Assembly (NCBI RefSeq): GCF_002087085.1
Contig: NZ_MWQY01000009.1
Span: 62,001 to 126,000 of the forward strand
DNA length: 64,000 nt
Source of the DNA: Marispirochaeta aestuarii
Lineage (GTDB): Bacteria; Spirochaetota; Spirochaetia; JC444; Marispirochaetaceae
Direction of reading: 5' to 3'
The position numbers and the translations under genes are program-made. Shown here in pieces: positions 36,872 to 40,964 of this stretch (position 1 is the stretch's first letter; every line of letters begins with the position of its first letter). A model generated the notes under the pieces. The model did no database searches. It was given only the letters and a program-made list of their open reading frames with translations, and was not told the origin of the DNA.

Positions 36872-37738
36872 TTATTTCAGCCTGCCTCCGTAAACGGGAA
36901 ACATGCTGGCCTCTCCATAGTCCTTGATCTGCTCCATGTTTTTTAAGGTTTCCATGTCTTCTTTGGATATGGAAAAATCAACCTCAGCATTGTTCTTCAT
37001 GTGGGCCGGATTCGCTGTTTTTGGCAGCGGCAGAAGTCCAAGCTCGAGGCAGTAGCGGAGACCAAGCTGGGGTATGGAAACACTGTATTTTTCGGCAATA
37101 TCACGTACTGCCTGATTTTTCATCAGCTCTCCATGGGCGACCGGGGAATAGGCTTCTACAAGAATGTCGTTTTCCTGACAATAGTCGATCAGCTCTTTTG
37201 GAGTGTTGGTAATATGTGCCAGTATCTGGTTGACCATCGGTTTTACCGTGCAGGATTCAAGAATATTCTCCAGATCTTCCTTCTGAAAATTGGAGACTCC
37301 GATGGCGCGCAGCTTGCCTGCTTTATAGGCTTCTTCAAGGGCTCTCCATGCTTCACGATTCCCTTGTGCATAGGGATCGTCCTCGTGGAATTCCATCCAA
37401 GGTCGAGGGCTATGGATAATCATCATATCAATGTAATCCAGCCCCATCGTTTTACGAGAATTATCAATGGATGCCACAGCCTCTTCATATGACTTGACTT
37501 CAGCAGCGAGCTTGGTTGTCACAAACAGATCTTCCCTTTGTACGCCGCAGGCCCTGACACCTTCACCTACACCCCGTTCATTCTGATACGCCTGGGCGGT
37601 ATCAATATGCCGATACCCCATCTCCGCAGCATCTTTTACGGCCTGTACAACATCGTCATCGCTGATAAACCATGTACCCAAACCCAGCTTGGGAATCTCT
37701 ACACCATTCGACAGGGTAAAATTTTCCTTTAAAATCAT
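36872..37738 (-). CDS. Aldo/keto reductase
   Basis: The protein is 288 residues. The AKR tetrad is visible: Asp and Tyr in YRHIDTAQAYQNE, Lys in FVTTKLAAE and His in MMIIHSPRP. LRAIGVSNFQKEDLENIL and LLPLPKTANPAHMKNNAEVDF (cofactor site) follow. It reduces aldehydes or ketones with NADPH in the cytosol. It belongs to the AraC-linked cluster 36.8-41 kb, where the regulator is of the AraC_N type that in E. coli (YqhC) controls aldehyde reductases including the AKR DkgA. A role in reactive-aldehyde detoxification is therefore an inference. Confidence 0.92.
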   Translation of the reverse strand: MILKENFTLSNGVEIPKLGLGTWFISDDDVVQAVKDAAEMGYRHIDTAQAYQNERGVGEGVRACGVQREDLFVTTKLAAEVKSYEEAVASIDNSRKTMGLDYIDMMIIHSPRPWMEFHEDDPYAQGNREAWRALEEAYKAGKLRAIGVSNFQKEDLENILESCTVKPMVNQILAHITNTPKELIDYCQENDILVEAYSPVAHGELMKNQAVRDIAEKYSVSIPQLGLRYCLELGLLPLPKTANPAHMKNNAEVDFSISKEDMETLKNMEQIKDYGEASMFPVYGGRLK

Positions 37739-37803: not shown

Positions 37804-38247
37804 TTATTGTTCTCCCAGTTTGCCGTAGTACTCGTCTGAAACAGGTTCAAGCCACTCGTTACCGGTCTCGTCACCGGGAATCTCTAGCGAGATATGACTG
37901 AACCAGCTGTCGGACTTCGCTCCGTGCCAGTGTTTTACTCCCGTCGGGATATACACAAAGGAACCTTCAGCAAGACTGACGGGGTCTTTCCCCTCTTCCT
38001 GATACCAGCCCTCTCCCGCCGTACAGATCAGCATCTGCCCGCCGCCGCTTTTAGCATGATGAATGTGCCAGTTATTCCGGCATCCCGGTTCAAATGTAAC
38101 GTTAGCCAGAAACAGGGGAGTCTCTCCCGGTTTTACCAGGAAATTGAGAAATGAATCCCCAATAAAATATTGGGCGAACATCTCATTCGGCATGCCTGTT
38201 CCGAACATATTTGCTTTTTCGAATTCGTTCTTATTCGAGTATTTCAT
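37804..38247 (-). CDS. Cupin-domain protein
   Basis: The protein is about 147 residues from the ATG at 38247. Cupin motif 1 is WHIHHAKSGGGQMLICTAGEGWYQEEG (two His and a downstream Glu), and motif 2 is GSFVYIPTGVKHWHGA, giving the His3/Glu metal site. The family is found with carboxymuconolactone decarboxylase and aldo/keto reductase genes, as here, but its substrate is unknown. The two-half-site motif at 38305 lies 58 bp upstream. The gene precedes the aldo/keto reductase on the same strand, with 65 bp between. Confidence 0.88.
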   Translation of the reverse strand: MKYSNKNEFEKANMFGTGMPNEMFAQYFIGDSFLNFLVKPGETPLFLANVTFEPGCRNNWHIHHAKSGGGQMLICTAGEGWYQEEGKDPVSLAEGSFVYIPTGVKHWHGAKSDSWFSHISLEIPGDETGNEWLEPVSDEYYGKLGEQ

Positions 38248-38304
38248 CGTTCTATTCAGCTCCTCGCATAGTCTTCGCGTATAAAATACCGATTTACCCG
38301 GCAA

Positions 38305-38347
38305 CAAAGAATGTCTATTTCTCCATAATAGCTGCCTATTCCTGCAT
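38305..38347. promoter_or_regulatory. Candidate AraC-regulator site upstream of the cupin gene
   Basis: CAAAGAATGTCTATT (38305-38319), 13 bp, TGCCTATTCCTGC (38333-38345). The same two blocks recur with identical spacing at 39461. Inside them TGTCTATT and TGCCTATT are direct half-sites 21 bp apart, two helical turns, as AraC-type proteins prefer. Confidence 0.65.
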
Positions 38348-38450
38348 TGTTTTGAGTTTTTGTGCTTATTTATTCGAATATTCTTGCATAATTAATGTAT
38401 GATAGATATCTAAACAGATCACAATTAAGGAACCTTTTTTTACGTCAATC

Positions 38451-38630
38451 TTACAGAGACTGTTTGCCGACTTCGATCTTTTTGCGATAGTTCAAGGACA
38501 GAAGCCCGGCCTCCACGATAATCAAGGAATACATGCTCATCCGAAACCAGTTTTCCGCACTCTTCGTCCCCGGAGATGCTATTCCCTCGATATTGCCCGT
38601 GCCCTTCAGTACAGTGACGGGATTGTCCTG
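38451..38630 (-). other. Open frame after the CMD gene stop (possible remnant or extension)
   Basis: Directly after the TGA of the carboxymuconolactone decarboxylase gene the same frame stays open for 59 codons to a TAA at 38451. It includes DNPVTVLKGTGNIEG and a hydrophobic MYSLIIVEAGLLSL. I do not recognise it. It may be the tail of a lost gene or of a longer ancestral protein. No start codon with a good ribosome site is present. Confidence 0.3.
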
Positions 38631-39389
38631 TCACGCATCATCCGGCAATGCTTCCTTTAAGGAGTTCAAGGCATTCAGGGTTCTCGGGAAACCGACATAC
38701 GGCAGGCACTGGGTAATGGCGGAGATAAGCGTATCCTTACTGTTGCCGACACTGGTATTCCCGTATATATGGGACTTCACCTGACTTTCGCATCCCCCTA
38801 GAGAAATAAGAATACACAGCGTTAGCAGCTCCCGTGTCTGTACATCCAGCCCGCTTCGCGTATAGATGTCTCCGAAGCAGCAGGCAGACAGATAATTCTG
38901 TATGTGTTTCAGGTTATCCGGGGCATTCCTGTGCATCTGATCGATGACATCCCCGAAGATGGATTTCTGGACCTTCAGTCCCTCATCAAAACGGGTTTCC
39001 TCTGTTACCCGCTTCTGGCTTTCAACAGGGAGAGTAATACCGGCCTGCTCGAAAACCGCGTTCGCACGGTTCAGGACGTTGAGAGTTTTGGGGAATCCGA
39101 TGTAGGGAGCGCATTGATACATGGCTTCTTTTATCTCCACCGGTGAGACTCCAGCGTTAAGCGCGGCGAAAACATGGGCCGAAACCTGGTCCAGTGTCTG
39201 GCTCGCGGTTAAAACAACCAGGATGATCAGTTCTCTCGTCGCATCTTTCAGGTCTCCCTGATAATACACTTCACCGAATATAAAGCAGTTCAGCATTTCC
39301 TGGAAGTCCGGATCAGACGCTGCGGCGGAAGCTGTCACGTTCCCAAACAACTCTTTATATTTCTTCTGACTCCGTTCAATTCTGTTCAT
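38631..39389 (-). CDS. Carboxymuconolactone-decarboxylase-family protein, two-domain
   Basis: The protein is about 252 residues from the ATG at 39389, which has AGGAGG nine bases upstream. It carries two AhpD/CMD-like repeats: LNCFIFGEVYYQGDLKDATRELIILVVLTA to YIGFPKTLNVLN, and LSACCFGDIYTRSGLDVQTRELLTLCILISLGGCESQVKSH to YVGFPRTLNALN. The AhpD-type CxxC is not intact. CMD proteins act as lactone decarboxylases or peroxide-linked thiol reductases; which applies here is unknown. Divergent from the AraC gene, with the shared motif at 39461 between them. Confidence 0.9.
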   Translation of the reverse strand: MNRIERSQKKYKELFGNVTASAAASDPDFQEMLNCFIFGEVYYQGDLKDATRELIILVVLTASQTLDQVSAHVFAALNAGVSPVEIKEAMYQCAPYIGFPKTLNVLNRANAVFEQAGITLPVESQKRVTEETRFDEGLKVQKSIFGDVIDQMHRNAPDNLKHIQNYLSACCFGDIYTRSGLDVQTRELLTLCILISLGGCESQVKSHIYGNTSVGNSKDTLISAITQCLPYVGFPRTLNALNSLKEALPDDA

Positions 39390-39460
39390 AAACTCCTCCT
39401 GATTAAGCTTCTTACAGGTTCCCATTGAATACCATGTAAATATAAAGGAATAATCGGCTG

Positions 39461-39506
39461 CAAAGAATGTCTATTCAGCCACATCTCTTGCCTATTCCTG
39501 CGTAAT
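39461..39506. promoter_or_regulatory. Candidate AraC-regulator site between CMD and araC-type genes
   Basis: CAAAGAATGTCTATT (39461-39475), 13 bp, TGCCTATTCCTGCGTAAT (39489-39506). It is the second copy of the motif at 38305, in the same orientation relative to the minus-strand gene it precedes. It lies 72 bp ahead of the CMD gene and 75 bp ahead of the AraC gene, so it may serve both. Confidence 0.65.
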
Positions 39507-39580: not shown

Positions 39581-40465
39581 ATGAATACTACTATTTTAAC
39601 TATGAAAGATATTTTACTGGAAAAACTCCCCGCGGAAGGAATCATTGAAACTGGCATTAAGGGTGTTGGTCTGTTCAGACGGGACAATCCTTATAAAAAG
39701 CGGCCTCAATTGTACAACCCGCAAATTATCCTGTTAGTCCAGGGGAAAAAGAATATCTATCTGGGTGACAAGACCTTTGTGTATGATCCCCAGCACTACT
39801 ATGTTCAAACGGTTCCCCTTCCAGTGGAATGTGAAGCAGTCATCGAAGAAGGCAAACCAATGCTGGGAATGGTTATAATGATTGATCCTCAAACCATCGG
39901 AGAAATTTTATTCGAGATGGACACGGAAATCCCGCCCGCAACCAGGAAGATGCGCAACAGCCTGTACAACGCATCAATGTCCGATGCAATAACAGACGCT
40001 GCATTAAGGCTGTTAAAAACTCTCGACTCAAAGAATGAAACACGAGTATTGGGACCAATTTTTCTCAAGGAAATACTCTTCAAGATAATCTCCGGAGAAA
40101 ACGGTGAAATTCTGAGAGAACTGGCAATTAACAACAGAGGATTTTATCAAATATCCCGGGTAATCAGTAAAATTCATGAAAATTACTCTCGTCCCATTGA
40201 AATTCAGGCCCTTGCCAGGGAGGCGGGAATGAGTTCCACCGCTTTTCACGCCTCCTTCAAAGCCATGACCAGTACATCTCCTCTTCAGTACATCAAGAAT
40301 ATCAGGCTTCATAAAGCGAAAGAAATCATACAGAATGAGGGAGAAAAAGCGAACGCAGCCGCTATGCGTGTCGGTTATGAAAGTTCTTCCCAGTTCAGCA
40401 GAGAATATAAACGTACCTTCGGGACAACGCCGGCAAAGGACAGGCAGACTGGCTCTGTTTATTAG
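39581..40465 (+). CDS. AraC-family regulator with AraC_N-type effector domain (YqhC-like)
   Basis: The protein is 294 residues. The N-terminal cupin-like AraC_N domain shows KGVGLFRRDNPYKKRPQLYNPQIILLVQGKK and DPQHYYVQTVPLPVECE. The C-terminal DNA-binding part has HENYSRPIEIQALAREAGMS (first HTH) and AAAMRVGYESSSQFSREYKRTFGTTP (second HTH). This type includes E. coli YqhC, an aldehyde-responsive activator of reductase genes. It sits in the middle of the AKR/cupin/CMD/cyclophilin-like cluster and the paired motif occurs next to it. Confidence 0.9.
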   Translation: MNTTILTMKDILLEKLPAEGIIETGIKGVGLFRRDNPYKKRPQLYNPQIILLVQGKKNIYLGDKTFVYDPQHYYVQTVPLPVECEAVIEEGKPMLGMVIMIDPQTIGEILFEMDTEIPPATRKMRNSLYNASMSDAITDAALRLLKTLDSKNETRVLGPIFLKEILFKIISGENGEILRELAINNRGFYQISRVISKIHENYSRPIEIQALAREAGMSSTAFHASFKAMTSTSPLQYIKNIRLHKAKEIIQNEGEKANAAAMRVGYESSSQFSREYKRTFGTTPAKDRQTGSVY

Positions 40466-40487: not shown

Positions 40488-40964
40488 TTACTTCTTCTCT
40501 ATCCGAACCGTACCTGCCATATCCTTAATATACTGTTCCCCTGATACGGAACGCCCCAAAGCGTAGAGCCCCGCTGCAGAGCCGAAGTCGCCGTAGAACA
40601 TTACTACGTCTCCCCAGGGAGCATAATACGCGAGACTTCCCACAGTATTATTCGACGCCAGGGGTGTGCCGGCAGTATCAAGTTTGTCGGGCGGATAGAA
40701 AATCTTTTCGTTACCACCGAAGTCCTCAACCTTGACGCTCAAAGGCAGCTGGTCATACAGCTCTCTGGATGCCCGGCTGTTGTTCAGTTCAAATACTGTT
40801 GTTTTTCCATTTGCCGTTAGCTCGATTATCATCATGTTTTGTTCCTCTTTCACAAATCCTGTTTCTTCATTCAACGATGGAGTTGCTGCTGCTTTTTCGC
40901 TGACCCAGGTAACGGGAAAAAATATTATGCCTAGGAAAATTAACAAGAAAACTATACGTTTCAG
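40488..40964 (-). CDS. Exported cyclophilin-like-fold protein, apparently CTG-initiated
   Basis: The protein is about 158 residues. The C-terminal 110 residues match the small cyclophilin-like family: IELTANGKTTVFELNNSRASRELYDQLPLSVKVEDFGGNEKIFYPPDKLDT and NNTVGSLAYYAPWGDVVMFYGDF. For the start, TTG at 40946 would cut the signal peptide; a CTG at 40964 gives MKRIVFLLIFLGIIFFPVTW, a complete signal peptide, with AAAGGAG seven bases upstream. I therefore prefer CTG, a rare start. Family members accompany AKR and CMD genes in many anaerobes; their function is unknown. Confidence 0.78.
   Translation of the reverse strand: MKRIVFLLIFLGIIFFPVTWVSEKAAATPSLNEETGFVKEEQNMMIIELTANGKTTVFELNNSRASRELYDQLPLSVKVEDFGGNEKIFYPPDKLDTAGTPLASNNTVGSLAYYAPWGDVVMFYGDFGSAAGLYALGRSVSGEQYIKDMAGTVRIEKK

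Follow-up and report, generated by a model that had tools for sequence, protein, structure and literature searches.

Two exact copies of the two-part sequence CAAAGAATGTCTATT-N13-TGCCTATTCCTGC lie in the window (the whole stretch of 64,000 nucleotides of Marispirochaeta aestuarii DNA analyzed here), and the question raised by this locus is which protein, if any, reads them and to what effect. The copies occupy positions 38305-38345 and 39461-39501, both on the + strand; the first is found upstream of a cupin-AKR (aldo-keto reductase) unit, and the second sits between a CMD (carboxymuconolactone decarboxylase-family) gene on the - strand and an araC-type gene on the + strand. The initial annotation had noticed the motif ahead of both units in the same orientation, and this observation holds, with both copies exact, 0 exact matches in 100 shuffles, and none expected by chance, except that the second site had been extended to 39506 and truly ends at 39501. 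Our analysis points with high confidence to the repeats being operators of the adjacent AraC_N regulator (39581-40465), which would bind them head to tail and activate the enzyme units, probably upon an aldehyde trigger.

The Twin Sites and Their Neighborhood

The conserved blocks of the two copies are identical at 28/28 bases, and their N13 spacers agree at 4/13 bases, i.e., at chance level; thus, the spacers are not made of ‘13 different bases’ as originally described. The first block (15 bases) and the second block (13 bases) start 28 bp apart, so the previously proposed 28-bp phasing is correct as a distance between block starts, but the functional period is a direct repeat of 21 bp. The latter distance, also present in the initial annotation, is confirmed by the starts of TGTCTATT and TGCCTATT. 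When the half-sites and their spacing were searched for across the entire genome (4.2 Mb, 97% complete) with up to two mismatches, just the two window copies came up, and a looser search with three mismatches added one match of poor quality. Similarly, a model of the regulator family trained without the window (described in the next section) scored the two sites 37.3 and 28.1, the only scores of at least 12 across the 64 kb, with a top score of 19.8 on ~300 kb of shuffled sequence.

The features of the locus are collected in Table 1, where the cupin and CMD genes begin at ATGs that make them shorter than the longest ORFs. The regulator had been called YqhC-like, and rightly so: it scores 131.5 bits against AraC_N (PF06719; cut-off 24.2), also contains HTH_18, and is 42% identical to E. 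coli YqhC. Judging from sequence, the targets include a predicted NAD(P)H-dependent aldehyde reductase, namely the DkgA/YvgN-type AKR behind operator 1. The cupin resembles TM1010 and (R)-mandelonitrile lyase-type cupins, and the CMD protein scores under the cut-off of the PcaC model. The window cluster contains no Fe-ADH (yqhD), and we therefore refer to the system as YqhC-like and not as a yqhD system. The scan of the 64 kb with the family model found no operator belonging to the cyclophilin-like gene itself. This gene, here displaced behind the regulator, is part of the operon at the related locus L018, lies close to operators at other loci, and is likely a regulon member in relatives.

Table 1. 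Genes, operator half-sites, and predicted promoter elements at the twin-site locus, in window coordinates.
Feature	Position	Strand	Basis
AKR gene, DkgA/YvgN type	36872..37738	-	Pfam Aldo_ket_red; DkgA model, YvgN chains
Cupin gene, 147 aa, ATG 38247	37804..38247	-	Pfam Cupin_2
Predicted -10 TATTTT, cupin-AKR promoter	38283..38288	-	17 bp from -35; family -10 signal
Predicted -35 TTCTTT, cupin-AKR promoter	38306..38311	-	abuts half-site; family -35 signal at this offset
Operator 1, promoter-proximal half-site TGTCTATT	38312..38319	+	exact copy; family half-site at spacing 21
Operator 1, distal half-site TGCCTATTCCTGC	38333..38345	+	fits family motif TCTTGCCTAATCCTAC
Two-domain CMD gene, 252 aa, ATG 39389	38631..39389	-	Pfam CMD
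Predicted -10 TATATT, CMD promoter	39439..39444	-	family register
Predicted -35 TTCTTT, CMD promoter	39462..39467	-	family register
Operator 2, promoter-proximal half-site TGTCTATT	39468..39475	+	exact copy; spacing 21
Operator 2, distal half-site TGCCTATTCCTGC	39489..39501	+	exact copy; family motif
AraC_N (YqhC-like) regulator gene, ATG 39581	39581..40465	+	Pfam AraC_N and HTH_18; alignment, tree
Cyclophilin-like gene	40488..40946	-	Pfam Cyclophil_like2

A Direct Repeat Common to AraC_N Loci

The 57 AraC_N loci that we assembled, one of them the window, come from genomes of Spirochaetota, Paraburkholderia, and others, from E. coli, and from plasmids belonging to Pseudomonadota, Bacillota, Planctomycetota, and Cyanobacteriota. 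The window, L018, E. coli, and Klebsiella were set aside, and EM motif discovery on the sequences upstream of the regulators in the remaining ~53 loci yielded de novo the family motif TCTTGCCTAATCCTAC, present in 88% of loci. The four held-out loci score 20.6-21.0, compared with a best score of 17.0 among ~1100 shuffled sequences, and 37/56 loci lie above the 99% null; since AraC_N loci are related, these counts are not independent events, though several phyla are spanned. A clear site beside the regulator is missing in about one-third of AraC_N loci, some of which have one elsewhere in the locus. Nearly all good matches share the orientation seen in the window and are often located 75-80 bp from the regulator start.

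Scanning for a second half-site at distances of 14-29 bp revealed clear peaks at two spacings, 20 bp (z 6.4) and 21 bp (z 9.7), but none at the distances next to them; the value at 27 bp was weaker (z 3.6). The operator is thus a direct repeat with a period of 20 or 21 bp. A Spirochaetota clade (L055-L066) with regulators that are 44-50% identical has the 20-bp spacing; the window and L018 nest within this clade yet have 21 bp, a lineage-specific spacer difference of 1 bp. The first target genes behind AraC_N sites encode mostly reductases: the 44 first-gene proteins comprise 16 SDR, 8 AKR, 4 Fe-ADH, and 3 proteins with a zinc-dehydrogenase domain, and also include 3 CMD, 3 cupin, and 3 DUF2255 proteins.

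Promoter Register and Proposed Mechanism

In a test of 36 sequences, E. coli among them, the enzyme strand carries a -35-like hexamer that starts at the first base past the half-site (z 5.9), followed at offset 23, after a 17-bp spacer, by a -10 (z 11.7). In the window, this register reads AATAGACA-TTCTTT-N17-TATATT for CMD and AATAGACA-TTCTTT-N17-TATTTT for cupin-AKR, with a weak -35 (TTCTTT). It follows from the family register that the outer CAAAGAA of the repeat is the -35 of the enzyme promoter in reverse complement. The initial proposal of an AraC-type operator is supported, but the outer CAAAGAA belongs to the promoter and is not a half-site. In the same frame, the E. coli site reads TTGAGA / CACAAT, and the yqhD promoter is reported with a -35 TTGAGA and a -10 CACAAT in PMC6115493 (citing Lee et al. 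2010). This match tests the frame from outside, as E. coli was absent from the motif-finding set, although it is one of the 36 sequences of the register test. A fixed promoter in the regulator direction, with its -35 in the distal half-site, was considered and rejected: TTGCCT-N18-TATATT is present in the window, but no clear peak for a -10 stands at that place across the family (z at most 2.7).

The araI1-I2 half-sites of E. coli AraC form a direct repeat 21 bp apart, of which the promoter-proximal half touches the -35. AraC differs from the window regulator in its half-site sequence and ligand, and a DNA-looping site was not seen in the window. The sites of the window have the AraC class II layout, i.e., a direct repeat at 21 bp, an abutting -35, and 17 bp to the -10, which suggests activation. 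In the mechanism we propose, two regulator subunits would sit head to tail on the 21-bp repeat TGTCTATT-N13-TGCCTATTCCTGC, both on the same face of the DNA. Since the promoter-proximal half-site lies directly against the -35, a regulator bound there can contact RNA polymerase, and this contact would lead to class II activation of CMD and cupin-AKR. As with E. coli YqhC, the trigger would probably be reactive aldehydes or related electrophiles. Binding, the direction of regulation, and the inducer are all proposed by analogy with YqhC, and the aldehyde signal is additionally suggested by the presence of the AKR and the conserved targets.

Comparison with Related Systems

The E. coli yqhC / yqhD-dkgA system resembles the window in having a regulator with AraC_N and HTH domains and a DkgA-type AKR among its targets. 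The likeness extends to the divergent gap, which has the 21-bp direct repeat, orientation, and -35/-10 register of the window; the operator common to the window and the yqhC-yqhD gap has held-out scores of 20.6 and 20.8. The two systems differ in that E. coli has one operator and the Fe-ADH YqhD, whereas the window has two operators and no adjacent YqhD, with CMD and cupin instead. The locus L018, from a Spirochaetaceae MAG (JANXYQ010000084), encodes a regulator 67% identical, and an AKR and a cupin 72-77% identical, to those of the window, and its operator has the 21-bp spacing and occupies the same place. Unlike the window, L018 has one operator for one CMD-cyclophilin-cupin-AKR operon with araC, and its CMD is single-domain.

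The dyad stands before the CMD-cupin-AKR unit in L018 and in a second syntenic genome, G027, and the two-part motif recurs in the E. coli yqhC-yqhD gap. The G027 operator (L145, 5726-5762) is near-perfect (score 37.8), and the cupin and AKR behind it are 80-83% identical to those of the window. No PF06719 protein was found in this genome, which is 99% complete, and its site may be a recently orphaned operator. At the place of araC, G027 has a PucR-like gene, according to our reading of the ORF. The CMD-cupin-AKR cluster was not found at the Paraburkholderia (L019) and Mucilaginibacter (L020) loci, nor was a close regulator found in the sampled genomes of the Mucilaginibacter class.

Cupin loci serve as a control. 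A dyad scoring at least 28 is present at these loci in 3/3 genomes having a close AraC_N regulator (the window's own genome, G167, and G250) and in 1/27 in the other genomes, the exception being G027; seven of these other genomes were checked for PF06719 and lack it, the rest were covered by a protein search of the phylum sample, and G336 has a distant AraC_N paralog only. The genome G167 (L113) has two operators at a distance of ~20 kb from its regulator. Between two and four operators surround one regulator in L058, L059, L064, and the Planctomycete plasmid L092. In L092, one operator faces a small gene followed by a cupin and another faces an AKR, much like the window. Thus, relatives commonly have more than one operator for a single regulator, making the duplication in the window an ordinary one.

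Regulator Phylogeny and Cys84

The window regulator falls in a supported group of 31 rows in the tree (100/99), which contains YqhC plus seven mostly SDR-facing rows and whose inner forks are open. Cys84 (codon 84, window 39830-39832), within the sequence LPVECE, is a conserved feature of the window clade, shared with E. coli YqhC and a small number of other regulators (20/56); in the rest of the AraC_N set, position 84 mostly holds a different residue, for instance Gly or Ser. None of the 18 regulators with Cys84 faces an SDR gene, versus 11/22 without it (Fisher p 0.0003), a comparison that ignores kinship and uses a strict pattern for SDR assignment by which some SDRs are missed. The genes faced by regulators with Cys84 are instead those for AKR, Fe-ADH, cupin, and CMD proteins. 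From its pattern of conservation, Cys84 is a possible lead, as a candidate electrophile sensor residue. Against a direct role of aldehydes, the published view is that they may affect YqhC only indirectly (PMC4132294). The group-specific Cys84 offers a concrete residue for studying how YqhC senses aldehydes.

Alternative Explanations

It is doubtful, if conceivable, that the regulator, once bound to the sites, acts as a repressor of the enzymes, or that it senses a non-aldehyde signal such as quinones, other electrophiles, or a catabolic substrate. AraC_N paralogs with the same operator do face SDR, transporter, or LtrA genes, and the CMD gene could hint at aromatic catabolism. However, a half-site set against a weak -35 in a fixed register is the layout of an activator, and E. 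coli YqhC, which has the same layout, is an aldehyde-induced activator. Along the same lines, Cys84 is common to the window regulator and YqhC, and the split in SDR targets described above (0/18 versus 11/22, kinship ignored) goes with this residue. A different transcription factor could also bind the sites, the neighboring regulator being incidental, and the operator in G027, scoring 37.8 in a genome with no PF06719 protein, speaks for this view. We consider it very unlikely, as the motif emerged de novo from loci picked solely by their regulator, often lies 75-80 bp from the regulator start, and is missing at 26/27 cupin loci of genomes without a close regulator. The twin sites are very probably docking sites for the neighboring regulator.

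Two further readings concern the repeat itself. The 28/28 identity of the conserved blocks exceeds what a degenerate family consensus needs, as would be expected of a single promoter segment copied recently or of a mobile repeat. Such an origin is highly improbable, with the spacers identical at chance level (4/13), two copies only in the genome, each before a promoter, and blocks conserved across phyla. The operator might instead be a palindrome, with the direct repeat incidental, given that PMC6115493 describes the yqhD site of E. coli as combining a SoxS-like sequence with a 24-bp palindrome. E. coli and Klebsiella indeed have a palindrome overlapping the distal half-site, but they are the only 2/37 loci to do so at p 0.05, the window not being among them, and the 20/21-bp direct repeat is family-wide, which leaves this reading scarcely credible.

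Possible Scope of the Direct-Repeat Rule

The YqhC aldehyde switch is already known, and the window probably holds a further case, in a spirochaete; the family-wide direct-repeat/-35 rule seems new in detail. It is evenly balanced, in our judgment, whether the AraC_N family of Spirochaetota, Pseudomonadota, Bacillota, and Planctomycetota follows one code, a 20/21-bp TGCCTRATYCT repeat fixed to the -35 of the target, with the Cys84 branch (LPxECE, including YqhC) exerting electrophile-sensing control of aldehyde reductases. If true, this one-code reading would supersede the account of the E. coli site as SoxS-like plus palindrome. Given its defined promoter register, the striking repeat becomes an operator that can be tested, extending the YqhC-type regulon to spirochaetes, and the motif allows regulons to be predicted from sequence for a large and little-studied family of regulators.

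Among Bacillota, the araC / CMD-AKR divergon on plasmids of Priestia megaterium (L103, L142) resembles the window in its CMD (~60-64% identical), in a regulator divergent to CMD and AKR, and in the L103 operator, which has the window's spacing. It differs in having one operator and a regulator just 32% identical, without Cys84. The CMD gene on several Priestia plasmids (L103, 2484-3224) seems frameshifted into two pieces in some records and is intact in others.
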